Shown here: in pieces, positions 11,847-38,345 of the stretch | Numbering within the stretch: the first letter of the stretch is position 1 | Layout of the letters: each line of letters begins with the position of its first letter | DNA from: a virus | IMG/VR virus record: IMGVR_UViG_3300047552_000616 | Span: 1-51,683 of that record | DNA length: 51,683 bases | Strand: one strand, 5' to 3' | The notes under the pieces: generated by a model | Seen by the model: only the letters and a program-made list of their open reading frames with translations | The model's database searches: none | What the model was told of the DNA's origin: nothing | Position numbers and translations under genes: made by a program

Positions 11847-13318
11847 AGCAATCCAAGCTCTTTAGCCTTCTCTCTCAATGCTTGCATTTGATTACCAACT
11901 GCAAGCATTTTTTCATTTCTAATTTGCATCTCCAAAACATCCCGGTCCGAAGCTCGGGGTGCATTAAGCGGGACATACACTACCTTAGGTTTATTGTTAA
12001 TTAATGTTGTTGTATCTTTCTCCACACCGATCTTACCTACTGTTTGGAGATATCTGACTACATCTAGAAGTTCGTTTTCCTTCATGGGAAACTTAGCCCA
12101 TATGTCCCGGAAAGATTGTCGCGGATGGGAGAATAGCCATCGCTCAACTTCGCCGCAAATTGTGGAGAATTCATTTGAGCCAACTAAGCTCAGAGCTTTT
12201 GACATCTTAGGTTCGATAGCTTCTAGTTGGGCTAACACTTTCTTAACCGTGGGCAATCTTATCACGAAATCTGTAGTTTGATCTGCAAAGTGATGCGCCA
12301 TGGCTAGCTTCTGTGTGGTTATGTTCTTGCGAGCATAGTAGGAATCTAGCTTAGGATCTGTATTGATTCGTTCATTGGGTAAGATCTTAGTGAAATATGT
12401 ATGGAGGAATTCATCTGCTTCCGGGTCAAAACTAACCTGGCCGAAAGCCTTACTTAGTGCTAATAGGTGATCCAATATATGTTTCTTACACTCTAGTTGT
12501 TCATCATTGAAGTCCGGGATTCTGAAAGCATACCGTCGCGGGACTTCCTCGTAGATAATCACCGTCCTACCAAAGAATCCTTCATGAAGTAATCCTTTGG
12601 CCTTACCTTCCATTAAGAAATCACTGACAGTTCCAGCTATTAAACTAGTGCATGTATTTTTCAGCAGGTCATTACCCTGTGTTTTAGTCCGATATTCAAA
12701 TGGACCACAATCATATGTGGTTAGCAGATATCGGACTACCTGTTCAGCTTCGCGACGAAATAGCGTGGACATTTCGGGAAGGATAAAGCATATGCTATTA
12801 TGCATATATCTACCCTTTGGAGCTAATACTCTAGTGGGTTTTTGATCAACTAGATACCGGGGATTAGATCCATTAAAACGAACCAAATCTTCAAAGCTAG
12901 TAGCATCAGCACCAACAGGGAACACAAGAGAATCCTCGATTTGTCGCGGACCACGCTGACCATTCCTTAAGTTCTGCATTGCAGCCATACCATCTAGCAT
13001 CCCGGCCAATGCTGCTTGAAAGTCATCGGGACTTATTCCCTGAGTTTGGGCTTTAGCTTCCTCTTTGGCTGGTAGCTTTCGTTTTACTATATGATGACTG
13101 AGGAAACTCCTAACAGGCCCAAGGACTAGTCCCTTGCCTACTCCTGGTGGCCCAACAAGCATCACATACATATTGGCGAAAAGTGGCATCTCTTCACCAC
13201 CACACCAAACTCTTCGTTGAAGCGCAGCCGCGATAAGGAAATAAAACCCGAAGTCAATAAAATGATCCGGTGATGTTATGTCCTTAAGGTAGTATCTCCA
13301 GCGATCTAGGTTGGTCAT
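11843..13318 (-). CDS. DUF3987-type P-loop ATPase, probable replication protein
   Basis: The 491-residue product has a Walker A motif GPPGVGKG at residues 56-63 inside NMYVMLVGPPGVGKG and a hydrophobic-acidic ICFILPEMSTLFRR segment at about 170-180 where Walker B is expected. The family pattern (FGFYFLIAAALQRRVW then the P-loop, and later STLIAGTVSDFL) is that of DUF3987 proteins, which often stand in for helicase or primase modules in phages. The C terminus has a winged-helix-like part (FRDIWAKFPMKENELLDVVRYLQTVGKI). It is next to the polymerase genes, so a role in replication is likely. I see no separate DnaB helicase or DnaG primase here. Confidence 0.65.
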   Translation of the reverse strand: MTNLDRWRYYLKDITSPDHFIDFGFYFLIAAALQRRVWCGGEEMPLFANMYVMLVGPPGVGKGLVLGPVRSFLSHHIVKRKLPAKEEAKAQTQGISPDDFQAALAGMLDGMAAMQNLRNGQRGPRQIEDSLVFPVGADATSFEDLVRFNGSNPRYLVDQKPTRVLAPKGRYMHNSICFILPEMSTLFRREAEQVVRYLLTTYDCGPFEYRTKTQGNDLLKNTCTSLIAGTVSDFLMEGKAKGLLHEGFFGRTVIIYEEVPRRYAFRIPDFNDEQLECKKHILDHLLALSKAFGQVSFDPEADEFLHTYFTKILPNERINTDPKLDSYYARKNITTQKLAMAHHFADQTTDFVIRLPTVKKVLAQLEAIEPKMSKALSLVGSNEFSTICGEVERWLFSHPRQSFRDIWAKFPMKENELLDVVRYLQTVGKIGVEKDTTTLINNKPKVVYVPLNAPRASDRDVLEMQIRNEKMLAVGNQMQALREKAKELGLL

Positions 13319-13319
13319 A

Positions 13320-13811
13320 TTAAGGCTGCCTTCCCAATAGTAAATATTCTTCGGGAACGAGTAATACTCCTTCCATCCATGGCAATACTACAAGAAGCAT
13401 TCCAAGTAATATATTAGGAGTATGGATATTATATTGTTCTAGCTGTTTAATTACGAGTGGTTGATATATCATTAAATTAGAACCCATTAAAGCATTAAAA
13501 TGTTCTATTCCCATTAAGATAGTAAATTTTCTAGAGGTACAAAAATTATACTCACGATGAAGATGAGAGGAAAGCTTTATAATTTCAGTATAAAGTTTTT
13601 CTTTATCTATTGTAACAGTTTCCGTGATAGTAAGTTCTTCTTGCTTCTTCTTTACCCATCCGATTTGCTGCAAGAATTTAATATATGAGTTAGCTCTCTT
13701 GCGAATAGTTTTCTTAACCGGCCTAAGTCGCTTAAGAATAAATTCTTCTTTTGAGTCTATCCACTTAGAAATTCTTTTACGATTATTTACAATAAATTTT
13801 TGGTATCTCAT
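13320..13811 (-). CDS. Unknown protein between polymerase and ATPase genes
   Basis: The 163-residue product has a very basic N terminus (residues 1-60, NNRKRISKWI and RPVKKTIRKRANSYIKFL) and a hydrophobic C terminus (ILLGMLLVVLPWMEGVLLVPEEYLLL). The start overlaps the polymerase C-part stop by 4 bp. The region is more AT-rich than its neighbours. The basic N terminus could bind nucleic acid, but I do not recognise the family. The context suggests a replication accessory protein. Confidence 0.5.
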   Translation of the reverse strand: MRYQKFIVNNRKRISKWIDSKEEFILKRLRPVKKTIRKRANSYIKFLQQIGWVKKKQEELTITETVTIDKEKLYTEIIKLSSHLHREYNFCTSRKFTILMGIEHFNALMGSNLMIYQPLVIKQLEQYNIHTPNILLGMLLVVLPWMEGVLLVPEEYLLLGRQP

Positions 13812-14818
13812 ATTTCCTTCATCCCTTCCGGATTTACTTTTTCATCGTAGTCATCCCAATTATATCCTGCACATACCTCAACCTTCATCTTAAATTCTTC
13901 TCCCTGCTCATTCTTTAAATCCTGCTCTAACATTGTTCTTAATGTGTTAGCCATTTCTTCAACGTCTGCTGTATTGTCTGGCACCTGCGTTAATATCGAA
14001 TCATGTTCATTGTTCAATATGTGCCAAATACTAGCTCGCATCGTAGTCTCAATATACTGCTGCAATCCATAGAATGCTATATTCGTTATTGTCCCTACAG
14101 TAGATTGAGGTATCCATGCTGTCATATCTCGCATGGCCTTTTCTGTTATGGGGCCATAGTAGTAGCATGGATGCCCGAAAAGATTTCTAAAAGCTAGCTT
14201 ATGTTTTAGCTTGTAGTCTATCGAATTAGCGTGCCACTCCCTTATTTCGGGAAAGAGCGAATGATATCCATCTAGAAAGGCATCAGCTTCTTTCCGGGAA
14301 ATGACCACCTTCCCTTCGGACTCTCGTAAGATGTCCTGCTGAAAAGTAGGTCCACGCATACGGTAATTTGCTGATAGCCCAGTCTTTTTGCCGATGAAAT
14401 ATCTGATCGGACTTGCTTTAATAGCTTTTTCCAATCCGGCCCATGCGTGAAATTGTTTGATTTCTCTGACAGGCAATGATAAGATTGTGTCGATGTGATG
14501 ATGACCTTCTTCTTTCCAATAGTTCCTGAAGATTTTTGCTGTGACATAAGTATGTAGTTTAATTTTGTTAAGAAATAACTGACGTAAATTACCGTCCCGA
14601 CATAACCAAGCAACAATTAAGGCTTCTGCTCCCGCTTGATCTGCTTTGACAAATTTATACCCCTGATCGGGAATGACTAATCGCTTCTCTTCTTGCGATA
14701 AGTTCTGGCAATTCCGTCCCCATATACCAAGGAGCTTGGAAGATCGGTTACGGAAGCTATTAGCTAGTCCGACTTTCCATGCTCCAGTGAGGCGGGATGG
14801 TGATAGGTTAGGGAGCAT
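13808..14818 (-). CDS. DNA polymerase family A, palm/fingers part (split gene)
   Basis: Numbered from the chosen ATG, the product is 336 residues and carries the C-terminal catalytic half of a family A polymerase. Motif A is at about 57-66 (FVKADQAGAEALIV, the counterpart of DYSQIELR). The O-helix, motif B, is at about 143-156 with GKKTGLSANYRMRG, and motif C is at about 271-276 (EHDSIL). The stretch before motif A (NRSSKLLGIWGRNCQNL) matches the usual TGRLSS...NLQN segment. Thumb and exonuclease are missing here and are encoded at 15549-17111. Two other genes lie between. An in-frame TTG at 14836 is an alternative start; I prefer ATG at 14818. The start overlaps the preceding gene. Confidence 0.85.
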   Translation of the reverse strand: MLPNLSPSRLTGAWKVGLANSFRNRSSKLLGIWGRNCQNLSQEEKRLVIPDQGYKFVKADQAGAEALIVAWLCRDGNLRQLFLNKIKLHTYVTAKIFRNYWKEEGHHHIDTILSLPVREIKQFHAWAGLEKAIKASPIRYFIGKKTGLSANYRMRGPTFQQDILRESEGKVVISRKEADAFLDGYHSLFPEIREWHANSIDYKLKHKLAFRNLFGHPCYYYGPITEKAMRDMTAWIPQSTVGTITNIAFYGLQQYIETTMRASIWHILNNEHDSILTQVPDNTADVEEMANTLRTMLEQDLKNEQGEEFKMKVEVCAGYNWDDYDEKVNPEGMKEI

Positions 14819-15224
14819 TGGAATAATCCCATTCAAAAGGATACCTAGATTTCAATGTCTCATACAACTCCATCAATACAGCATATAGTCTTGGGGCATT
14901 ATTCTTCATCATACTTCCATCTTCCCATTCACCTGTTCCGGGAATAAGGACATGATAACGGGGTTCGGGATATGCTGAAGCTATCTTTGTGAATTCATCT
15001 ATAATAATACCCTCATATGTCCGGAGTTCCATATCCCAAAAGAAATCCTGTTGCTTATTGCATGGTGCTCTCTTGGTTGTTATGGGAAAGCAATTGGGAT
15101 ACTTATTCCATGTGCATCGCCAATGATCTTCTCCTGCTCGCTTTAAGTTATCACCATATATGAAGCTTATTTCAGGATGCTCCATTACATACAGTGGAGT
15201 TATTTTATAGGGTATCTTAGTCAT
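14808..15224 (-). CDS. DUF7831-like protein inside the split polymerase locus
   Basis: The 138-residue product has the pattern FIYGDN...G........NKYPNCFPITTKRAP at residues 21-54. It resembles the FGDN...G.A..R...N..GIPTKR pattern of DUF7831-type phage proteins, which I associate with macro-like folds of unknown function. It lies between the two halves of DNA polymerase A. Its stop overlaps the start of the palm part, and its start overlaps the previous stop by 4 bp, so the genes are probably translationally coupled. The family call is from memory of the pattern. Confidence 0.55.
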   Translation of the reverse strand: MTKIPYKITPLYVMEHPEISFIYGDNLKRAGEDHWRCTWNKYPNCFPITTKRAPCNKQQDFFWDMELRTYEGIIIDEFTKIASAYPEPRYHVLIPGTGEWEDGSMMKNNAPRLYAVLMELYETLKSRYPFEWDYSNAP

Positions 15225-15556
15225 AGAACCTCAGTCAAGATTCGCCATGATTTTAGTGTGTTATTATCAAACACAAGTTCAACTGGAGTATCTTTAAGCT
15301 CCTCCACTGAATTCACTTTTGCTTCATCAAGAAACTTTGAGATTAGTCTAACCAATTCATCATGGAATTTACTCCGCTCTTTTTCTGTCCATACAGCATG
15401 CTTAGATTTCTTTATCTTAGTTGGGTCCCATGTAGTGAATCTCCAACCAACACCTCCAAAGGGACCGCCAAATTCAACATGAAGTCCAAGTCTTCCCTCG
15501 CATACACCAAACTTAATGCTTGTGATTTTTCCTAGTTTAATGTCGTTGTCATTCAT
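15221..15556 (-). CDS. Conserved small phage protein inside the split polymerase locus
   Basis: The product is 111 residues from the ATG that overlaps the polymerase N-part stop (MNDNDIKLGKITSIKFG). The pattern, with KLGKITSIKFGVCEGRLGLHV early and VNSVEELKDTPVELVFDNN plus LKSWRILTEVL at the end, matches a small protein family common in unrelated phages whose function I do not know. It is the first gene of the cassette separating polymerase halves. A longer TTG-started frame (15616) would lie inside the polymerase coding region and is less likely. Confidence 0.6.
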   Translation of the reverse strand: MNDNDIKLGKITSIKFGVCEGRLGLHVEFGGPFGGVGWRFTTWDPTKIKKSKHAVWTEKERSKFHDELVRLISKFLDEAKVNSVEELKDTPVELVFDNNTLKSWRILTEVL

Positions 15557-17111
15557 AACAATTCCATCTAATAAACTGTAATCCACTTGTTTGTTTTTGT
15601 ATCCGCCTAAATTCAATGGTGAGATCCAATATGGGATTGAATGCTTCCTTACTCTTCAACCATAGCTTCATCTTATATAGCTGACTTTTACCAAGGCTAG
15701 CCCGATGTGTTTTCTCGCTTCGGGCCATTACCTTATATCCCATCAGTTCATGGAAGTAATGAATGCATTGCTTATTGCTGGATGGTAGTAGCTCAAAGCC
15801 AGCTAGGATCTTAATCATCCGCATTATCTGCATCATTTTTCTGTCGTTCTCTTGGATCTTAGCTGTGGCCTTATCTTCATCAAAACAGATGCCCATTAAA
15901 CTATTCACTAGATAAGCATATAGTGCATTGTTAGTGCATTCTATGCTGGACTTCAACCCAGCATCCTTACTCGCCAGTCCATCCAGCCCTTCCTTTACCA
16001 ACATCATCCCATAGATATCCTTGCCATTATATTCCCACAGCTTACGCTCATCCCCGGCATTATGTGGTGCAAAGATACCCTCATCTTTATGGTAAGGTAA
16101 CCATGTTAAGTGACTCATTGCATGGCCAAGAGATTTCTCCACACCAACAAATGCCTTATGGTGGGATATCATCGTATCATATATCTTTCGGCCAAAAGGA
16201 ATCTTGTAGTAGTGTGCCAAGATAAATAAATCAAACATACTATTGTGCACCACTACTTCGTTATCCCTCATTCCCGCAGCCAATGCTCTAACCAAAAGTA
16301 TAGTCCTTTCGCCATAAGCCAGAGAACCATCATAGCGAAATATAGGCACAACAAACACAGAAGGAAATCCAAAGCTGAATCCGATACACCGAAGATTCGG
16401 CCTCTCTTCCATATCCGTTTCGATATCCAAGTATAGTGTTTTGTTTTTCGTGGTAATGAGCGTTTCATAAGCTTCCTCAAATGTGGGATAGATAACATAT
16501 TGAGGTGTGGGATGACATGGAACTTTACCGTTAAAGTTTAGTAGGATATCCTTAACCCGTCGCGTGTCTGTGGTCAGCCAAAAGCGATAATTAGATCGGC
16601 GGGTTTTACCATGATCTTTGATGGACTCATCTTCGGCATCAGCATCCTCTTCTCCATCTTCATTGTATCGTGGTGTAAGTTCACCGTCCGGGATAGCTTC
16701 GGCGGGATTTAGGTAGGGATTCTTATCCTTCTCCCAGTCCTGCATATCGAATGCATCCACGGGTAAGTAGCTTGCAATCGCCGGGATATCTGGATATTCC
16801 TTTAGCGATAACGGAGTGCCACGATGTTGATTGAGACTTAGCGCGGGATCGACTAGAGCTTTAAGGGCATCCGCACCAAGGATGAGGATAGATTTAGTGC
16901 CATCACGGAGTCTCTTGCCTCCGGCCCGATATGCCTCCAAATCCATCACGTCACATTGGAGGTTATTTATTTCGGGACGGAGGCAGTCTTCCCTAAACCA
17001 CAATCCTGCATTGCCAGCTAGGAGTTGCTTGGCTTGCATATCAAATCGCGATGGATTCGATAGGATTATTGTTAATCCTTTGTAGGAGAATTTAGGGGGA
17101 TGGTGGAACAT
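15549..17111 (-). CDS. DNA polymerase family A, UDG-like + 3'-5' exonuclease + thumb part (split gene)
   Basis: The product is 520 residues. Residues about 1-130 resemble the uracil-DNA-glycosylase superfamily domain found fused to some phage polymerases (ILILGADALKALVD, HRGTPL, IASYLPVDA). An acidic linker follows at 150-170. The DEDDy exonuclease has Exo I LDIETD at 228-233, Exo II HNSMFD at 289-294 and Exo III YNGKD at 361-365. The helical thumb begins at about 380 and stops abruptly after EFRRIQKQTSGLQFIRWN. The palm is encoded separately at 13808-14818. A terminator lies upstream at 17120-17152, so this gene may begin a new transcript or depend on read-through. Confidence 0.85.
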   Translation of the reverse strand: MFHHPPKFSYKGLTIILSNPSRFDMQAKQLLAGNAGLWFREDCLRPEINNLQCDVMDLEAYRAGGKRLRDGTKSILILGADALKALVDPALSLNQHRGTPLSLKEYPDIPAIASYLPVDAFDMQDWEKDKNPYLNPAEAIPDGELTPRYNEDGEEDADAEDESIKDHGKTRRSNYRFWLTTDTRRVKDILLNFNGKVPCHPTPQYVIYPTFEEAYETLITTKNKTLYLDIETDMEERPNLRCIGFSFGFPSVFVVPIFRYDGSLAYGERTILLVRALAAGMRDNEVVVHNSMFDLFILAHYYKIPFGRKIYDTMISHHKAFVGVEKSLGHAMSHLTWLPYHKDEGIFAPHNAGDERKLWEYNGKDIYGMMLVKEGLDGLASKDAGLKSSIECTNNALYAYLVNSLMGICFDEDKATAKIQENDRKMMQIMRMIKILAGFELLPSSNKQCIHYFHELMGYKVMARSEKTHRASLGKSQLYKMKLWLKSKEAFNPILDLTIEFRRIQKQTSGLQFIRWNCYE

Positions 17112-24358: not shown

Positions 24359-24535
24359 TTAAGGTGCCGGATATTTCTTTGCTGTAAAGTATCCATCTTC
24401 CCATGCTTCGCTCTGAATTTTCTTAATCCAATCTTCTATTGTTTCATTGTTTTGTGCTGTTGATTGAACATCAGTAAAGATCCAATGATTAACTAGAAGT
24501 GCTAGTTCTTCTCTTAATTCAGTGGGTGATTTCAT
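24359..24535 (-). CDS. Very small hypothetical protein
   Basis: This 58-codon gene starts MKSPTELREELALLVN and ends in TAKKYPAP. It is acidic and helical (IEDWIKKIQSEAWEDGY). It fills the gap between the AAA+ gene and the next small gene, follows the AAA+ stop by 5 bp and ends 4 bp before the next ATG, so it fits the tight packing of the arm. No function is recognised. Confidence 0.5.
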   Translation of the reverse strand: MKSPTELREELALLVNHWIFTDVQSTAQNNETIEDWIKKIQSEAWEDGYFTAKKYPAP

Positions 24536-24540
24536 GTAGC

Positions 24541-25416
24541 TTATTCCATATTAAATATATACTGCGTTATCATACTCTGCAACTGTCGAACATTTCCCAA
24601 CAATGAAAACTCCATCAAACTATCCATTAATGGTTTCCATTCTATGTCATCGGGATCTTCAACCCCATACTTCATCGCGATAGGTTCGATATCTTCTCTG
24701 CGGTTTCGCAATGGCAATATTCTCAACGTAAATGTAGCTAGTCGCCAGTAGAGATCTTCCCTCAACACTGCCATGGGGTTCTGATGTGTAGCTGCTATCA
24801 CCCGTGTGTCGAATGGGATATCTCCTAGTGCTCCAATAGGTCTAGCTTTATGTTCCTGTAAGGCTCTCAATAACTTAGCCTGCAATGGCTTAGGCATATC
24901 TCCAATCTCATCTAGGAATAATGTGCCCTTGTTAGCATAGAATAACAATCCTTCCTTATCCTCATACGCTCCCGTGAAGCTACCTTTCTTGTGACCGAAT
25001 AGCTCGGACTCTACTAGGTAGTCAGGCAAGCTAGTGCAATTCAATGCTACGAAATTCCCGACCCTATTCCCATGCAATGCTCGGGCAATAGTCTCTTTAC
25101 CCGTCCCGGTCTCCCCTAGAATTATCACGGGATGGTTTTCTATGGCTAGCCTGCGGACTATATCTTTCAGCTTAAGCATCTCGGGATTCTTGGTGATGAA
25201 TTTCCTTAGCTCAAATTCACATTCGATACTGGGGATCTTTAGGTCAGTGTATTTGGTTTGGATTCCTCGCCAGAAAGTATTAGCTTGCTGGCGATCACCC
25301 ATTGTGTAGAATCCTTCTACGATTTTAAGTTGCTGTTGAACAATTAGGGGTAAGTGTTCAATGTGTTGGAGGATTGTTAGACCAGATGTTGCTTGTTCGT
25401 GTAGGGGGATAGGCAT
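24541..25416 (-). CDS. Sigma54-activator-type AAA+ ATPase without DNA-binding domain
   Basis: The 291-residue product has an unknown helical N terminus (1-75) followed by a complete bacterial enhancer-binding AAA+ core. This has Walker A GETGTGKE at 101-108, a sigma54-contact loop GSFTGA at 145-150 (GAFTGA family), Walker B in GTLFLDEIGDM at 164-174, arginine-rich DLYWRL and LRNRREDI segments, and sensor II LLGNVRQLQ at 272-280. It ends at residue 291, so the usual C-terminal helix-turn-helix is missing. In bacteria such proteins remodel sigma54 RNA polymerase. Here it could act from solution on host sigma54 promoters, or have been re-used for another remodelling task. Confidence 0.8.
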   Translation of the reverse strand: MPIPLHEQATSGLTILQHIEHLPLIVQQQLKIVEGFYTMGDRQQANTFWRGIQTKYTDLKIPSIECEFELRKFITKNPEMLKLKDIVRRLAIENHPVIILGETGTGKETIARALHGNRVGNFVALNCTSLPDYLVESELFGHKKGSFTGAYEDKEGLLFYANKGTLFLDEIGDMPKPLQAKLLRALQEHKARPIGALGDIPFDTRVIAATHQNPMAVLREDLYWRLATFTLRILPLRNRREDIEPIAMKYGVEDPDDIEWKPLMDSLMEFSLLGNVRQLQSMITQYIFNME

Positions 25417-25747: not shown

Positions 25748-27001
25748 TTATTTGTTTTGATCCAACTCATCATCTTCAATAAATAATCCCGCCGCTTCTT
25801 CCTCTTCTTCATCCTCTTCCTCATCTCCATCCGCACCTTTCAATAACCTTATGCTTCCCGCCATACTCTCACTGTTAGCATGAGATTGCCCGGCTGCTTC
25901 TAGGATAACATCTTCCCAGCTTTCCTTCTGCCTAACTACTTTCTTTAGGCACTTAAGTTTCATGCTCACTATCGCGGCGACGTGTTCTTCTACTGTGCCC
26001 TTATAGAACAATACAACTTGTGACGTATCACTAAGGCTAGTTAATCGCGGTGCTCGGCCTAAGCCTTGGACTAATTCAATGGCAGAGTATGTTGTGTTGA
26101 GAAATGTTACTCGTTGTCTAGTGGATACCAATGGGATATCTTCTTCATATGCATATCCCGATTCATCTTTCCTTCGGACTTTGTGCTTGGTTAGTTCGTC
26201 AGTGTGATGTAAACTTAGTCCTACTCCACCCGACTTAAATGTGTAGAAACAATACCTGCTTCGGCCCGACTGGAATCTATCTATCTCTTCCTGTCGTTGA
26301 GTCCGGGATTGTGACCCTAAGTTATACCCAGACATATCCCCTAGTCCAGCATCATCCGATTTAAGTTGTTGCTTAATCTTCTTGATTGTTGCTTTCGGGA
26401 TATCATCAAACTTCCCGGACATCATTAATCCAAACACTCGAATAAACTCTGCATTATCAATTCGTTCTGTTTGATTATAGGCTGCATTTCCTCCCCATAT
26501 CAGGGAGATTTCATCTCGCTTTACTTTATATTTCTCTATCAAACATTTAACTGCACGTGCTATTCCTTGTTTGAAGCAGAAGACTGCCACAGGACTTTGA
26601 TCATACTTTGTCCTCGCATCATACATAGCTTCAGCTATTGCTTCAGCTTTACAATTCTCTGCTGCTTCCTTGAACTTCTGCATCTCAGCGAATAGCATGT
26701 AGCCCCTTACCCTGCCATCCAGCTTATCTGCCTTGCTACAAAATTCCATCCACCTTTCCCATGCCGAAGCATAATGCTTACGTTCCCATTCCGTTCTAAA
26801 CTCTAGCAACTGAACACCATTACGAGCATGGAATTGTGGACGTAGATTCTTGATGTCAACTACATGGGGCATGATCTTCTTCATTAGCCTCTCCATAGCT
26901 GATGGAGAATTTTCATCAGGATCTTGCGGGAACGCTATAGCTTTAGCGAATCCAGCCCAGTTTTGGTTAGTGACTTTGCGTTTGGGTGTAGTTATGTTCA
27001 T
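25748..27001 (-). CDS. SF2 helicase, C-terminal ATPase domain (split gene)
   Basis: The product is 417 residues from the ATG at 27001, which follows the upstream stop closely. It contains the second RecA-like domain of a DEAD/SNF2-like helicase: a motif IV-like AVFCFKQGIARAVKCLIEKY, motif V FKSGGVGLSLHH and motif VI IELVQGLGRAPRL with its arginine finger. VVLFYKGTVEEHVAAIVSMKLKCLKKV follows, and the tail is acidic. The first domain is encoded separately at 28072-29040, with three small genes between. Together they would make an intact phage SF2 helicase. The alternative start at 27022 lies inside the preceding gene. Confidence 0.8.
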   Translation of the reverse strand: MNITTPKRKVTNQNWAGFAKAIAFPQDPDENSPSAMERLMKKIMPHVVDIKNLRPQFHARNGVQLLEFRTEWERKHYASAWERWMEFCSKADKLDGRVRGYMLFAEMQKFKEAAENCKAEAIAEAMYDARTKYDQSPVAVFCFKQGIARAVKCLIEKYKVKRDEISLIWGGNAAYNQTERIDNAEFIRVFGLMMSGKFDDIPKATIKKIKQQLKSDDAGLGDMSGYNLGSQSRTQRQEEIDRFQSGRSRYCFYTFKSGGVGLSLHHTDELTKHKVRRKDESGYAYEEDIPLVSTRQRVTFLNTTYSAIELVQGLGRAPRLTSLSDTSQVVLFYKGTVEEHVAAIVSMKLKCLKKVVRQKESWEDVILEAAGQSHANSESMAGSIRLLKGADGDEEEDEEEEEAAGLFIEDDELDQNK

Positions 27002-27009
27002 ATCTATAT

Positions 27010-27333
27010 CTATTCTTTCCATTTACCTAGTGTCTTTAAGAATGCTTCGGCTCGTTGGCGGGAGGTGGCATTGATGGTTCTGTCGAGAATGAAAGGCTCA
27101 TTTGGTCTTAGTGTCTCCATCAAGACGTGATTGATGCTTACGCGAATGGAGCCTGGTTGAGACATGATCGCCTCGTGCATGGCATTGAGATCTGCGCAGT
27201 AGTTGGGAACATAGGACCAAACGTCGCCCTCGCAATCTGGTTTGTATCCTTCTGGACCATTAACTCTCACAGGATCGATGTCATGCCACCCACAGCACTC
27301 CGCAATCGCGATATTGATTTCGGTGTCGGTCAT
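27010..27333 (-). CDS. Conserved small phage protein between the helicase halves
   Basis: The 107-residue product has a family pattern that I recognise from many phages: MTDTEINIAIAECCGW at the start, PNYCADLNAMHEA in the middle and NATSRQRAEAFLKTLGKW at the end. The function is unknown. It is the last of three genes separating the helicase halves. Its start overlaps the previous stop by 4 bp. Confidence 0.65.
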   Translation of the reverse strand: MTDTEINIAIAECCGWHDIDPVRVNGPEGYKPDCEGDVWSYVPNYCADLNAMHEAIMSQPGSIRVSINHVLMETLRPNEPFILDRTINATSRQRAEAFLKTLGKWKE

Positions 27334-27707
27334 ACATTCACACTGGCATAAAAGTTATCAATTGCTTTCTGTGTTGATTCGAGCCTCTGGTATTCTGGAA
27401 TCTCTTTTGAGAACTCCACTTCTAATTCAACAAGTGCATTGCATAGATCGCAAGCGATGTTCTTCCATGTTGTGGTGTCTGGCACTTGCATAAGTGGAGG
27501 ACTATCCTTGAAGTCCCGTAACCGTTCCCCAAGAATGTTAGAATACTGAACCATGATTTCATGTTGTCGCTTGAGTAAAATCTTGTGCCGATCAGACACC
27601 CCGAAGAGCAAGCGTCCAGAGATGAAGTCATACAGGCGGGCAATTTTGGAATCCAGTTCCTGCTTTTCCGTTGCTACCCGTTCTTCTACATTTTCAGATA
27701 TTTTCAT
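27330..27707 (-). CDS. crAss001_48-like small protein between the helicase halves
   Basis: The 125-residue product begins ENVEERVATEKQELDSKIARLYDFISG and continues ILLKRQHEIMVQYSNILGERL. This is the pattern of the widespread small phage family named after crAss001_48 (RVxxEKxELDxKxxxLxxF...L..Q...M..Y...L..R). The function is unknown. The leader reads CAACAACAAATAAAACAAAT and overlaps the upstream stop. Confidence 0.6.
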   Translation of the reverse strand: MKISENVEERVATEKQELDSKIARLYDFISGRLLFGVSDRHKILLKRQHEIMVQYSNILGERLRDFKDSPPLMQVPDTTTWKNIACDLCNALVELEVEFSKEIPEYQRLESTQKAIDNFYASVNV

Positions 27708-27710
27708 ATG

Positions 27711-28064
27711 TTACTTGATTTGTTTTATTTGTTGTTGAGAGATAAGAATTAGAATAATGATTACCAAAACAATCTGAACCAAATTAAATGGTTCTTTTTG
27801 AAGACCTGAAAGCCATCCCAGAACAACCAGCAGTAAAACAATGGTTATCATGGTTCCATTGCAAATGTCAGCAGCATCCGTCATCCCCTGCTTCCATGCG
27901 TCGAGTTGGATTTGTTTGACAAATTCCATTAAGTTCTCTGCGCTATGCTCTGATTCATAGGAGAATGTTAGTGATGATAGACTTGTAGCTTTCTTTTCTT
28001 TGGTGTATTGAAAGTCAGGTATAACTGTATCTTCATTCATTACCCACTCTTCTGCTGTTTTCAT
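27711..28064 (-). CDS. Small C-terminal membrane protein between the helicase halves
   Basis: The 117-residue product has a soluble N terminus containing EFVKQIQLDAWKQGMTDAADI (a common phage motif, xxxIQxDAxxxGMxxAA). Two hydrophobic stretches follow (MITIVLLLVVLGWLSGL and FNLVQIVLVIIILILISQ). It is first in the cassette between the helicase halves. The function is unknown. Confidence 0.55.
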   Translation of the reverse strand: MKTAEEWVMNEDTVIPDFQYTKEKKATSLSSLTFSYESEHSAENLMEFVKQIQLDAWKQGMTDAADICNGTMITIVLLLVVLGWLSGLQKEPFNLVQIVLVIIILILISQQQIKQIK

Positions 28065-28071
28065 ATCTTAT

Positions 28072-29040
28072 TTATTCTTGCTTATAGCTAGCCACTTCTT
28101 CAACATTCATCTCTACCCCACACCCAACACTAACAACCTTAGCTTCACTAACTTTAGTGAATGGTGTTGCGCTGGCGAATACGAATCTTAACAAAGGATG
28201 TCCTATGTCACATGCTGCCTGGAATACTTTGCTTTGCATACTCTTCTCATTCTTTACAGCCTGACATTCATCTAGGATAAACAATACAGGATGGAATAAC
28301 TTCCATTTGATTTCATCTTCCTCCTGCCCATATCTAATTACTGTCTTCCAATCAATATACATCTCCCCAAAGCTAGCCCGGAGTTGATCGTAGTTGGTTA
28401 GCAAGACATCTCGTTTCATATCTAGTCCGAACCAATTAGTTAGCACTCTTCTAGTTTGTTCCACGATACTAGCTTTTGTCACGTAGAATACACTATATGG
28501 GCATAAGTGTTTGCCTTTGATGACTCCCGACTCTATGCTATCACTAATGAACTGACCCAATACGAATGTCTTACCTGTGCCTACACCTGCCGGAATTAGT
28601 GCGCCACGTAGGTTATCTATCCACAATCTAGTGAATAGATTTCTTGCTGCTTCTCGCTGTGGTTTGTAGAGAAACAATCCCGGCTTAGCTTTAGGGGATT
28701 TGTGTAGCTTCAGCTTAGTCGTTGCGTTATCTTCGGGGAACTTATCGCCACATGTAGTAGAGAATACTGTTTCGTAACTAGAGTCCGGGAAGCCTACAGT
28801 ATCTCCGGGGAAATGCAGGTTAGCTAGTTCGGGAGGGAGTTTGGATCTATCAAGCCTAGGGGATTGGGATTCTTCTTTCGCCATCGCACTACTCGTCGCA
28901 GGCAAGCTAGCTTTTGTTGTAGTAATGAGGGCTGTTGAACTTTTGCTTTCTTCTTGTTTGTTTTTGTTTTCATTTTTATTGCCTGGTAACCTTAAGTTAT
29001 TCCAATTGATTGGCGTAGGTTTAGGTAGAATTGTTTTCAT
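28072..29040 (-). CDS. SF2 helicase, N-terminal ATPase domain (split gene)
   Basis: The product is 322 residues. A disordered N terminus (1-110) precedes the first RecA-like domain. This has a Q-like motif LYKPQREAARN, Walker A PAGVGTGKT at 150-158, motif Ia VFYVTKASIVEQTRR, motif II LFILDECQ at about 253-260 and motif III FASATPF at 288-294. It stops soon after, at GVEMNVEEVASYKQE. The second ATPase domain is encoded separately at 25748-27001. Neither half could hydrolyse ATP productively alone, so the two products must associate or be joined. The ATG at 29040 follows the upstream stop. The start at 29058 would overlap that gene. Confidence 0.8.
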   Translation of the reverse strand: MKTILPKPTPINWNNLRLPGNKNENKNKQEESKSSTALITTTKASLPATSSAMAKEESQSPRLDRSKLPPELANLHFPGDTVGFPDSSYETVFSTTCGDKFPEDNATTKLKLHKSPKAKPGLFLYKPQREAARNLFTRLWIDNLRGALIPAGVGTGKTFVLGQFISDSIESGVIKGKHLCPYSVFYVTKASIVEQTRRVLTNWFGLDMKRDVLLTNYDQLRASFGEMYIDWKTVIRYGQEEDEIKWKLFHPVLFILDECQAVKNEKSMQSKVFQAACDIGHPLLRFVFASATPFTKVSEAKVVSVGCGVEMNVEEVASYKQE

Positions 29041-29041
29041 T

Positions 29042-29494
29042 TCATATATTCTTCTCAATTTCTCCGAGGTATTTATCTAGTGGAAATCCCGGTAAGTTCT
29101 TGCGAATCATTTCGGGATTCTTTGTCATGGCATTAACCATCATCAAGAACATGGGACTGCTGGCAATGTCAATACCTTGATGTTCCTTCATCCACTTAGC
29201 CATTGCTAATGCTAGTCCACCTTGAACAAGTGCTTCCTTATTGCGCTTAGCCATCCCGGCCTTAGCGCGATCTTGTTTCTCCTTGTCAGATTCCCAGTCC
29301 GTTCGGTTCCAAATTACTGGTGCTTTGTCGGGAGAGTCTGGCTTGATTAATACCAGTGTTGGTGGCAGTGAACTATTTAACTTTTCCAATGCTTCAACTA
29401 CTGGCTTACTTGGGCAATATCTATCGCGACCACGTAAGAGGAAGTGATGGAATTCTTCTATGTCTGTGAAGCGAAAGGTTATTGTTATTTCCAT
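29042..29494 (-). CDS. Hypothetical protein upstream of the helicase
   Basis: The product is 150 residues from the ATG at 29494 (MEITITFRFTDIEEFHHFLLRG). It has a ferredoxin-like beginning, then charged helices (RAKAGMAKRNKEALVQGGLALAMAKWMKEH) and a C terminus IRKNLPGFPLDKYLGEIE. An upstream in-frame start at 29542 would overlap the previous gene. It may partner the helicase because of its position, but no function is recognised. Confidence 0.5.
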   Translation of the reverse strand: MEITITFRFTDIEEFHHFLLRGRDRYCPSKPVVEALEKLNSSLPPTLVLIKPDSPDKAPVIWNRTDWESDKEKQDRAKAGMAKRNKEALVQGGLALAMAKWMKEHQGIDIASSPMFLMMVNAMTKNPEMIRKNLPGFPLDKYLGEIEKNI

Positions 29495-29498
29495 TAGG

Positions 29499-29714
29499 CT
29501 AGCCTTTCTTTTCTTCAAAGTTAATACACCCAAAGTTCTCACCCATTAAGACATCACTATCCCATCCACATACAATACCAATATCGCGAGAACTTCCATC
29601 AAACCTTGTGATATTGGGGGGAACGATAGAGCATGAGCCTAGGGGATGGCTAGTCATGTCTGCAAATTCTGTTGTTGATTTATAGTGTTTGCAATTCTTA
29701 CAGATAGGTTTCAT
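29499..29714 (-). CDS. Small cysteine-rich (zinc-binding type) protein, copy 1
   Basis: The 71-residue product has cysteines in ICKNCKHY, LGSCSIV, IVCGWD and NFGCINFE, the pattern of small phage proteins with CxxCxH...GxC...GxxxGCxxxE. It probably binds zinc. A second gene of the same type lies at 31277-31525, so it is a local paralogue pair. The leader is short and has no clear Shine-Dalgarno site. Confidence 0.55.
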   Translation of the reverse strand: MKPICKNCKHYKSTTEFADMTSHPLGSCSIVPPNITRFDGSSRDIGIVCGWDSDVLMGENFGCINFEEKKG

Positions 29715-29715
29715 A

Positions 29716-30096
29716 TTAGATTAGCCGTTCTTCTATCTTAACATATATTGTTTGTGGTTCAAAGGATCTTTCCTTGAAGTTTTCTATCCAAGATTCCATT
29801 GCAGTATGTGTATCATACCATACAGCATAGCATGGATCATCTGGATCAAGATGTGGATAGGAATATTCCAAACATGAATATTCTCTACTCCATCTTATCT
29901 GTAACTCTATTCCACCCTCTAGCTTTTCACCATCAAAAGCTATTGTTAGTTTAATATCTTTTGGAAGATCTTTCTTCTCTATGATAGTGGGGAAGAATTT
30001 CCACACAAAGTCAGAGCATATGAATGGAGAATCATATTGTGGACTATAGTATGCTCCATGATAACTGTGGAGAAATAGATCAATAGATTGTTTCAT
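29716..30096 (-). CDS. Hypothetical protein
   Basis: The 126-residue product is acidic and aromatic-rich, mostly beta (IKLTIAFDGEKLEGGIELQIRWSREYSCLEYSYPHLD), with a helical part TAMESWIENFKERSF. It has no membrane segment or catalytic motif. It sits in the string of small accessory genes near the start of the leftward arm. The function is unknown. Confidence 0.5.
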   Translation of the reverse strand: MKQSIDLFLHSYHGAYYSPQYDSPFICSDFVWKFFPTIIEKKDLPKDIKLTIAFDGEKLEGGIELQIRWSREYSCLEYSYPHLDPDDPCYAVWYDTHTAMESWIENFKERSFEPQTIYVKIEERLI

Positions 30097-30105
30097 GTTA
30101 TGGTA

Positions 30106-30426
30106 TTAGCCTTTCTTAGCCTTAGCCTTCCCCTTCCCACCAAACACATAAGCTTGCCATGCTTTCCATACACTCTGGGCTTTCTCCCCTGTATAGCTTA
30201 AGCTATGGTTTGCTGTGAGTTGGAGATATAATACGGGTGTCCAGATATCATAGATGCCTAGATTCTTAGCCATCAAGATATCCTTAGCTGTTCCCAATGG
30301 ATATCCTCTAGCTGTGGGAATTACCGGCCTTGTGTCCATTCGCATCCCGTGTTGGTTTGCCCACATTAGTTTGGCCCATTGGACATGGCGTAGGTTGACT
30401 ACTGCTTTGTTGTCTATGATTTTCAT
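30106..30426 (-). CDS. Hypothetical basic protein
   Basis: The 106-residue product has aromatic helices (LRHVQWAKLMWANQHGMRMD, QSVWKAWQAYVFGG) and a Lys/Ala/Gly tail (KGKAKAKKG). The start is ATG, possibly overlapped by the small frame at 30308-30523. The function is unknown. Confidence 0.5.
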   Translation of the reverse strand: MKIIDNKAVVNLRHVQWAKLMWANQHGMRMDTRPVIPTARGYPLGTAKDILMAKNLGIYDIWTPVLYLQLTANHSLSYTGEKAQSVWKAWQAYVFGGKGKAKAKKG

Positions 30427-35875: not shown

Positions 35876-36378
35876 TGACAGCCGCGAATACCCAAGTGGT
35901 TAAGGCATACGAAGACTGTGGGATGCTTCCATCCGAAATTGCGGAGACGCTCGGATGGGAGGAATCTGCGATCAAAGCTATCCTTGCAATCCATAGCAGG
36001 AAATACCGTAGTGATACCAAAGATCTGGGGGGTCCCCTGGAAGTATCCTCTAATGCTATACAGAAAGTAGATCGCGAGGGGGAAAGCGGGGCAGAAGATG
36101 TAGAAATAACAGACCCCGAATACCAAGAGATAATCTCTGCCTACAAACAACTAGCCCTATATAGTGAAGTAGACAGCGTTCGCGAAAGAGCGCTCCGGAA
36201 CCTTATTGATGAAAAGAAGGGTCGAAAACGAATCCTCAGCCCAAGCAAGGTTGGAAGCCTGAATATTGCACAGATTAATGTTTACATAAAACAGGCGCGG
36301 GAGGAGCTTCGGGGAATGATTGAAGGGATAAATCCCATTAACATAGAAGCTGAAGTTAAGCAGTTGAAACAGGGATGA
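35875..36378 (+). CDS. Terminase small subunit-like protein
   Basis: The 167-residue product has an N-terminal helix-turn-helix (residues about 6-40, VVKAYEDCGMLPSEIAETLGWEES), an acidic linker and C-terminal helices (EVDSVRERALRNLIDEKKGRK, INVYIKQAREELRGM). This layout and the position directly before the large terminase support a small terminase that recognises packaging DNA. Its end overlaps the large subunit start by 4 bp. Confidence 0.7.
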   Translation: MTAANTQVVKAYEDCGMLPSEIAETLGWEESAIKAILAIHSRKYRSDTKDLGGPLEVSSNAIQKVDREGESGAEDVEITDPEYQEIISAYKQLALYSEVDSVRERALRNLIDEKKGRKRILSPSKVGSLNIAQINVYIKQAREELRGMIEGINPINIEAEVKQLKQG

Positions 36379-38345
36379 TGAAATCTGGTATCCACAAATT
36401 TTCTAGTCCAGAAGAACTTCAGAAGTTCCTTAATCCCATATTAAGGAAAGCAGCAGGGAGGGTAGCTAATGATCCCATATCAGTATCAACAGCAGATCCA
36501 AAAGATAATCTTACTAAATCCCAAAATAATGGAAAAGGGAAAGAGGGAATTGACCTTACTAAACAAGGTAAGGAAATTACGTATGATGTCAAGAGGGAAG
36601 CTAATTCCAATGACATATACGTTCCCGACCTATCCTGTCCCGATTCAGATGGCCAAATCTATCGCGGAGACTTCAAGGTAGAAGATAACACGACAGAAGC
36701 CGAAGTTCGCGAACGCCTAAAGCCTAGAAATCTAGGAGAGTATGAACCACTTGAATTTGCTAATCCCGCAGAAATGTTCATATTCTTTGAGCGAATGGCT
36801 CAGGGACAACGTAAGCCATATTCCTGGCAAATAGAAACATTGTTGTTTCTAGGCAAACAATACTTCAAAGAAAATCCCCTTAGATTCTTCCTGCAAGCAT
36901 GTAATGGTAGTGGAAAGGACTCCTATATCATAGCATTATTTGCTGTATGGTTTATCGCAAGCAAAATCCGGAGTAGATTTATCGGGACATCTAGCTCATA
37001 TACACAGCTCGAAGGTCAAACAGAGAACTATATCCGGACCTATGCAGCACAAATTAATGCAGCAATTGGTGAGAATATCTTCCTAATCAAAAAACAACAC
37101 ATTGTATGCACTAAAACTGGTAGTGAAATTGTATTGTTCAGCACCAATGAACCTGGCCGGGCCGAGGGGTGGCATCCCCATCCGGACTATCCTGATGCAG
37201 AAATGTGCATATGTATCAATGAAGCTAAAACTATTCCCGATGAAATATTCTTGCACCTAAAGAAATGCACAGGCTATAACATATGGTTAGAGGTATCTAG
37301 TCCCGGAGGCACTAGTGGGCATTTCTACAATGAATGCCGGGTAGCAAGACAGTGGAGCGAGGGGTATGATGGAAGAAGTAAATTTAAGCGGAAAGTAACC
37401 TATGCTGATTGTCCACACATAAGTAAACAGGAAGTAAAGGATGCTATAGATGAACATGGAATTGGTAACTTCTGGGTAAGAGCAACCTATTTCGCGGAAT
37501 TCACAGACTTAGATAGTGAAGTAGTAATTGGGGGAATCCTGATAGATAATTGTGTAGAGAATCCCCCACCCATAATAGAAGAATGTCCCGAGCTTCCCTT
37601 AAGGGCGGGGGTCGATTTTAGCGCGGGAGGGGATGAAGATACCATATATGTATTCCGGGGTAACTATCTCTGGAAATCTAAAGCATTCCGGGAAGCAGAC
37701 ACTGTGATAGCAGCGGAGATAGTAATTCAATTCCTATCCTCATGTGGATTTAAGCCGGGGGAAGCTGAGAATGTAAGTATAGATGATGGTAATGTGGGAC
37801 ACATGCTAGTAGATACAATGCAACATAGGGGGTGGTCGGTATCCCGCGTTGCATTTGGTGGCAAGGCAATCAATTCCCTGATGTATGGAAATAAGGGCAC
37901 AGAAATGTGGTTCAATGTTAAGAACCTATTTGAGCAGGGATTACTCCACATACCAAAACAAGTCGCGGCAAGTGACAGGAAACTTCTCGATCAACTTAAG
38001 GGCAGGAAATACAAGAGATCCAATGCTAGCGGTAAACTCATATTACTAAGCAAAAAAGAGCAGAAAGAAGATGGATACCTTAGCCCGGACCGCGCTGATG
38101 GATTTGTTCTAGGTAACCATAGACTTCGTTGGAAAGATCTAGAATCCTTCTTCCGGACTAAACTTGAAGAAACTAAAGTCAAAGGAGTATCCCCTGAAGC
38201 ACTGCCGGGATACTATGATGATAACTTTGTATACAATCGCTTTGAGCAACATCCCCGTGGAACAAAACCTGCTTTGGTTGGAGATCAATATCGGATAGGA
38301 AAGAAACAGATTTTTAGTCACATTAAACGAATGATTGGAATATAA
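36375..38345 (+). CDS. terL: Terminase large subunit
   Basis: The product is 656 residues. The ATPase half has an adenine-motif region SWQIETLLFLG, a Walker A-like ACNGSGKDS at 175-183 and Walker B with catalytic acid MCICINEAK at about 277-285. The nuclease half has the RNase H-like acidic residues in LRAGVDFSAGGDED (about 409-422), VSIDDGNVG (467-475) and SPDRADGF near 600. It cuts and pumps DNA into the prohead with the small subunit and portal. The N-terminal 120 residues are charged and may be an extra domain. Confidence 0.9.
   Translation: MMKSGIHKFSSPEELQKFLNPILRKAAGRVANDPISVSTADPKDNLTKSQNNGKGKEGIDLTKQGKEITYDVKREANSNDIYVPDLSCPDSDGQIYRGDFKVEDNTTEAEVRERLKPRNLGEYEPLEFANPAEMFIFFERMAQGQRKPYSWQIETLLFLGKQYFKENPLRFFLQACNGSGKDSYIIALFAVWFIASKIRSRFIGTSSSYTQLEGQTENYIRTYAAQINAAIGENIFLIKKQHIVCTKTGSEIVLFSTNEPGRAEGWHPHPDYPDAEMCICINEAKTIPDEIFLHLKKCTGYNIWLEVSSPGGTSGHFYNECRVARQWSEGYDGRSKFKRKVTYADCPHISKQEVKDAIDEHGIGNFWVRATYFAEFTDLDSEVVIGGILIDNCVENPPPIIEECPELPLRAGVDFSAGGDEDTIYVFRGNYLWKSKAFREADTVIAAEIVIQFLSSCGFKPGEAENVSIDDGNVGHMLVDTMQHRGWSVSRVAFGGKAINSLMYGNKGTEMWFNVKNLFEQGLLHIPKQVAASDRKLLDQLKGRKYKRSNASGKLILLSKKEQKEDGYLSPDRADGFVLGNHRLRWKDLESFFRTKLEETKVKGVSPEALPGYYDDNFVYNRFEQHPRGTKPALVGDQYRIGKKQIFSHIKRMIGI

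Follow-up and report, generated by a model that had tools for sequence, protein, structure and literature searches.

A phage SF2 helicase encoded by two genes, with small genes at a probably old break between its motor lobes

How does a motor protein that normally keeps both of its lobes in one chain come to be encoded by two genes, and did the small genes lying between them cause the break or arrive after it? The question arises from the complete IMG/VR virus record IMGVR_UViG_3300047552_000616, whose 51,683 bases are referred to here as the window. The N half of a helicase occupies positions 28072–29040 on the minus strand (ATG at 29040) and comprises an accessory N terminus followed by motor lobe 1, with the motifs GVGTGKT, DECQ and SATP. 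The C half (25748–27001, minus strand) starts with MNITT and comprises motor lobe 2, with the motifs GGVGLSLHH and QGLGRAPR, and an acidic tail; an upstream ATG at 27022 lies within the end of the preceding gene. SF2 motifs I, II, III, V and VI are thus found in order over two RecA-like lobes, the arrangement of an SF2 helicase or translocase. In profile searches, the N half matched ResIII (PF04851, E-value of 1.7e-5) and the PHROG family 62 DNA helicase profile (phrog_62, E-value of 3e-12), and the C half matched phrog_62 (E-value of 4e-8), with the two halves covering successive profile positions, 682–851 and 1034–1182. Among the 27 rows scanned, ResIII and DEAD matches were present in 21 and 19, respectively. 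The genes of this stretch are co-directional and separated by short overlaps or spacers, so the helicase halves and the genes between them probably form one operon. Downstream of the helicase, at 24541–25416, lies a sigma-54-activator-type AAA+ ATPase (GSFTGA loop; PF00158, E-value of 3.5e-54) with no recognised DNA-binding domain, which is conserved in the relatives checked within the phage family.

The helicase is present as one open frame, at 34–44% identity, in 21 distinct related contigs (L002, L003, L004, L005, L006, L008, L010, L011, L012, L014–L018, L132–L136, L138 and L140), of which L136 is truncated at the 5′ end and L140 lacks the N-terminal accessory part; the near-copies L009 and L013, and L023 and L024, which are cut by contig ends, are excluded from this count. 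The window C half shares 43–49% identity with the matching region of relatives, be it a separate C half or the C part of a longer protein. Concatenation of the two window halves, a check proposed in the preliminary description of the locus, gave an end-to-end alignment with the intact 727–771-residue proteins at 34–40% identity with all motifs in order. In this alignment the break falls past motif III, where that description had put it, and within the linker that joins the motor lobes; the coordinates given there are correct. When the halves are joined at MN, the linker aligns without gaps to that of L003, with 23 residues between K and W. The suggestion that a native internal methionine codon became the new start, drawn from an N half ending near GVEMN and a C half beginning MN, does not hold. 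The N half runs past GVEMN into VEEVASYKQE, a tail resembling the C termini of split N halves from other phages (AEVGSEDMVGYKGD, RAEMGTE and RAEMGD), and the starts of the C halves vary among split phages (MN, MK, MP, MI, MS and ML), so the match is probably a coincidence.

In the structure predicted by AlphaFold for the one-chain L003 protein (pLDDT of 78, pTM of 0.59), SATP starts at residue 315 and a conserved HW is found at 349, which puts the break after lobe 1 and before the helix that follows it, H347–358. The top Foldseek matches of this model are Chd1, Rad26/CSB, ISW1 and Rad54, with E-values down to 1.9e-14 and query TM-scores of only about 0.4. A structural search with the window C half alone also matched SNF2 motors, some of the hits being C-terminal lobes (PDB entry 1z5z, for example). 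The helicase is thus an SF2 protein with an SNF2-like predicted fold; sequence similarity to SNF2 is weak, the profile PF00176 matching 4 of 27 rows (best E-value of 1.4e-4) and PDB entry 1z63 giving an E-value of 2.3e-4. Among isolated phages, nothing matched the window C half, and the only match of an intact helicase was a weak one to Paracoccus phage Shpa. The large terminase of the window (36375–38342) is closest to those of Akkermansia phages (31% identity), hinting at a Verrucomicrobiota-like host, and the majority of the structural proteins scanned had no PHROG match. The helicase C part of this phage family is also carried by L025, a contig binned as archaeal (Methanoregulaceae MAG contig JACTVG010000013.1), which is probably a misbinned phage or provirus.

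Searches with split members identified seven more phages in which the helicase is likewise cut within the inter-lobe linker and both halves are present: L021, L036, L037, L041, L042, L123 (with its near-copy L124) and L126. L125 has a free-standing C half with its own start, and shows the C half only because the contig ends. In the six split phages tabulated, the break lies 22–33 residues past the S of SAT. The gap between the halves ranges from 11 nt with no gene in L021 and 86 nt with a 27-aa hydrophobic frame in L036, through 247 nt with an 87-aa frame in L041, 251 nt with one gene in L123 and L124, and 384 nt with small frames in L037, to 1,049 nt with three genes in the window, 1,538 nt with about five genes in L042 and 1,998 nt with about seven genes in L126. 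Because the gaps of L021 and L036 are nearly empty and the filler differs in every lineage, the break is older than the three-gene filler of the window; on the same observations, the idea of the preliminary description that an inserted small-gene cassette caused the split is not supported.

The two halves themselves are well preserved. Walker A, DExQ, SAT, GGVGLSLH and QGLGR are kept in all six split phages inspected, and each half is an open frame of 316–424 residues. In the closely related pair L042 and L123, the C halves are 88% and the N halves 76% identical, and the gaps (1,538 versus 251 nt) differ by about four genes. The dN/dS for this pair is about 0.05–0.06 in both halves, a value to be read qualitatively because dS is near saturation, and by this codon comparison both halves are under purifying selection. 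Close kinship with constrained halves and different gaps implies rapid turnover of the filler at a stable break. Gaps between neighbouring core genes in the same genomes vary as widely as the helicase gap, so the insertion of small genes at the helicase boundary need not be special.

The three genes within the window gap lie on the same strand as the helicase. The first (27711–28064, minus strand) encodes a 117-residue protein of the MKxAEEW..IQLDA family with two hydrophobic C-terminal segments forming a putative hairpin. Other members lie just upstream of the intact helicase in G012 and within the L042 and L126 gaps. One more is found at 24359–24535, so that the window holds two members of this small-gene family (MKxxxE..IxxIQxxA), which recurs in several relatives. 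The second (27330–27707, minus strand) is crAss001_48-like (PF21825, E-value of 9.1e-13), with no relative among the 19 phages searched. The third (27010–27333, minus strand) encodes a 107-residue protein of the DLNAMHEA..AFLKTLGKWKE family, relatives of which occur elsewhere in at least seven phages (G001, G002, G007, G011, G016, G017 and G018) and within the L126 gap. Neither a nuclease domain, as expected of a homing endonuclease, nor a recognisable mobility gene was found among the filler of the window, L037, L041, L042 and L126. The three genes were also considered as one mobile cassette, and this was rejected: relatives of the window filler are single and at different places, although two of the families recur in the L126 gap.

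An imperfect direct repeat of 34 columns flanks the three genes (27 of 34 columns in a local alignment). Its left copy (28060–28091, minus strand) ends at the ATGAA of the first intervening gene, and its right copy (26997–27030, minus strand) ends at the ATGAA of the C half. The search for target-site duplications recommended in the preliminary description returned this repeat, but 3–7 of 666 pairs of gene-start contexts score as high or higher, and the repeat is absent at the four other gaps tested. It would fit recombination at gene-start sequences, for which it is suggestive only.

The number of fissions was approached through trees. In a helicase tree of six split and fifteen intact proteins, split and intact forms are separated by a single branch (99/97), and the same division is found with the N part only (89/91) and the C part only (99/97). 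The window is nearest by path to L036 and L037 in the C tree and to L036 in the N tree. Given the concordance of the N and C trees, the halves derive from one ancestral gene, and the possibility that they belong to two different helicases is excluded. Trees of the polymerase, an independent gene, also separate phages with split and intact helicases by one branch (100/99, or 93/91 with 26 phages); L140 lies on the split side with weak support, yet its motor core is unsplit. With an outgroup of distant intact helicases, the split clade is nested inside the intact proteins, monophyly of the intact proteins not being rejected (AU p of 0.23). Enlarged helicase trees, including more distant intact proteins, need two changes, with one split clade not rejected (AU p of 0.27 and 0.51). 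A single origin of the split was dropped as a proven statement, since the enlarged helicase trees and the polymerase trees disagree. By these trees the number of old fissions is one or two, a few at the most, and the direction was most likely from intact to split. The split N halves have long branches, which could reflect a changed or relaxed function of lobe 1.

The family-A DNA polymerase of the window is also encoded in two parts. Its N half (15549–17111, minus strand) matches phrog_17 (E-value of 4e-20, profile positions 565–949), its C half (13808–14836, minus strand) matches PF00476 (E-value of 6e-14) and phrog_17 positions 970–1235, and two genes lie between them. The preliminary description saw in the two enzymes a shared process. 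The anatomical likeness, a split enzyme with small genes between its halves, is real, but in every one of the 26 family genomes that were searched and carry the polymerase its halves are separate open reading frames, with gaps from a 38-nt overlap up to about 2.2 kb (19 genomes measured), whereas only part of the family has a split helicase. The two splits are for that reason no evidence for a shared recent process, and the polymerase split is, judging from its distribution, a family-wide ancestral trait, older than and separate from that of the helicase. A comparable three-gene polymerase locus, broken about 40 alignment columns away, occurs in Vibrio phage ABTNL-3; the polymerase genes of Pseudomonas phage 119X and a Desulfofustis phage are intact. 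In G014 (12041–14008, L077/L078), the polymerase C half contains an in-frame insert of about 300 residues that resembles an intein (from CVDKETMLL to ISVTGN-S), and in G025 (28556–30424, L154/L155) the C half is also interrupted, with one TGA in frame.

We propose, with a probability of about 0.82, that a stable old gene fission gave rise to a two-subunit SNF2-like helicase, and that ordinary small-gene traffic followed at the new boundary; the proposal draws on the sequences of uncultured metagenomic contigs. Intact single-chain homologues exist, and the halves are collinear, co-directional and conserved, as expected of a fission. The fission would be an old event, single or repeated a few times at most, that hit the flexible linker joining the two RecA-like lobes and left the halves as separate genes of one operon. 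In SF2 motors, ATP is hydrolysed between lobe 1, with the Walker motifs, and lobe 2, with the arginine finger. Here the lobe 1 half has the ATP site (motifs I–III) and the lobe 2 half has motifs V and VI including the arginine finger, so the ATPase is expected to need both halves. Since neither half is expected to be active alone and both are conserved, they most likely form a heterodimer, which would assemble in trans. The former coding linker would have become an ordinary gene boundary that early small phage genes may enter and leave without cost, as at the other boundaries of the module, the filler presumably being neutral for the helicase. A further-reaching and rather improbable version is that both the polymerase and the helicase act as pairs of chains separated at domain boundaries, that the split is functional and no tolerated accident, and that small early genes repeatedly dock in the gaps; a functional split could permit, for example, separate dosage, regulation or lobe exchange.

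That the same linker was split independently at least twice, lobe separation being useful or harmless (selection or tolerance), is a minority possibility: it has in its favour the two changes needed by the enlarged helicase trees, the split polymerase of the family and the polymerase split at an unrelated site in phage ABTNL-3, but those same helicase trees do not reject one split clade and the polymerase trees give one branch. The model of the preliminary description, in which a mobile small-gene cassette broke the ancestral helicase, some lineages subsequently losing or replacing it, seems unlikely. It draws on the repeat around the three-gene block and on the recurrence of two of the three filler families in the L126 gap, but L021 and L036 have the break with almost no gap, the filler is lineage-specific, lacks a recognisable mobility gene and has its families singly elsewhere, and the repeat is matched or beaten among other gene starts and missing from the four other gaps tested.

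It is very unlikely that the split is only apparent, with one polypeptide restored across an intron, a split intein, a programmed frameshift or a sequencing error. Phage genes split by introns or inteins are common in general, and the G014 polymerase insert is intein-like, but no Rfam intron was found in the window at the gathering score, or in the gap at E-values up to 5. A gene fractured at a split intein is expected to carry intein fragments at the ends of both halves; no Pfam intein match was found in the helicase halves, and their tails are too short to hold one, with 22–33 residues past SAT in the N half and fewer than 25 before the conserved W/F in the C half (from the first plausible start). 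The gaps moreover contain in-frame stops and other genes, and eight independent contigs agree. Least probable of all is that the halves are degenerating pseudogene fragments, to which the long branches of the split N halves might point; this is contradicted by the retention of every motif, the low dN/dS of L042 and L123 and the long open frames of both halves. A stable old fission followed by filler accounts for the gaps with a clear time order, which argues against assuming that genes found within an interrupted phage gene caused the interruption.

Split phage enzymes are already known. The T4-like DNA polymerase genes 43A and 43B are split in Aeromonas phages 44RR and 25, and the phage 25 halves co-purify and are active (PMC2988022); because only a spacer separates the halves in 44RR, and an endonuclease lies between them in phage 25, the split may have preceded the insertion (PMC2988022). 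This resembles the helicase described here in placing a replication enzyme in two adjacent genes, with the same possible order of split first and insertion later, but the enzyme is a family-B polymerase with a homing endonuclease or an untranslated spacer between its halves. In the OM43 phages MEP401 and MEP402, a family-A polymerase is split with one small unknown gene between, and its authors considered an intron and could not tell (PMC10580990); a replication enzyme in two genes with a small gene between is again the likeness, but this is a polymerase from a different phage lineage, whose helicase is not reported as split. The catalytic core of jumbo phage Pol III alpha is likewise divided into two standalone proteins, which are expected to reassemble (PMC7824862), but these are encoded far apart and belong to another enzyme. 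The nrdA gene of phage Aeh1, split by mobE, yields two polypeptides that are fully active (PMC2988022), an essential phage enzyme built from two chains as here, but its split is attributed to homing endonuclease insertion and none was detected at the helicase break. A search of the open-licence literature found no description of an SF2 or SNF2 motor whose two lobes are encoded by separate genes. The SWI2/SNF2 translocases, such as the Sulfolobus Rad54-like enzyme (PDB entries 1z63 and 1z5z), resemble the intact relatives in predicted two-lobe fold and motif pattern and are their best structural matches, but these cellular enzymes are single chains with weak sequence similarity. Against them, the split helicase would be a natural two-chain version of a motor that otherwise has both RecA lobes on a single polypeptide; it is maintained in a diverse clade of phages (about 40% identity), and it makes testable whether an SF2/SNF2 motor works with its lobes joined by protein contacts only.
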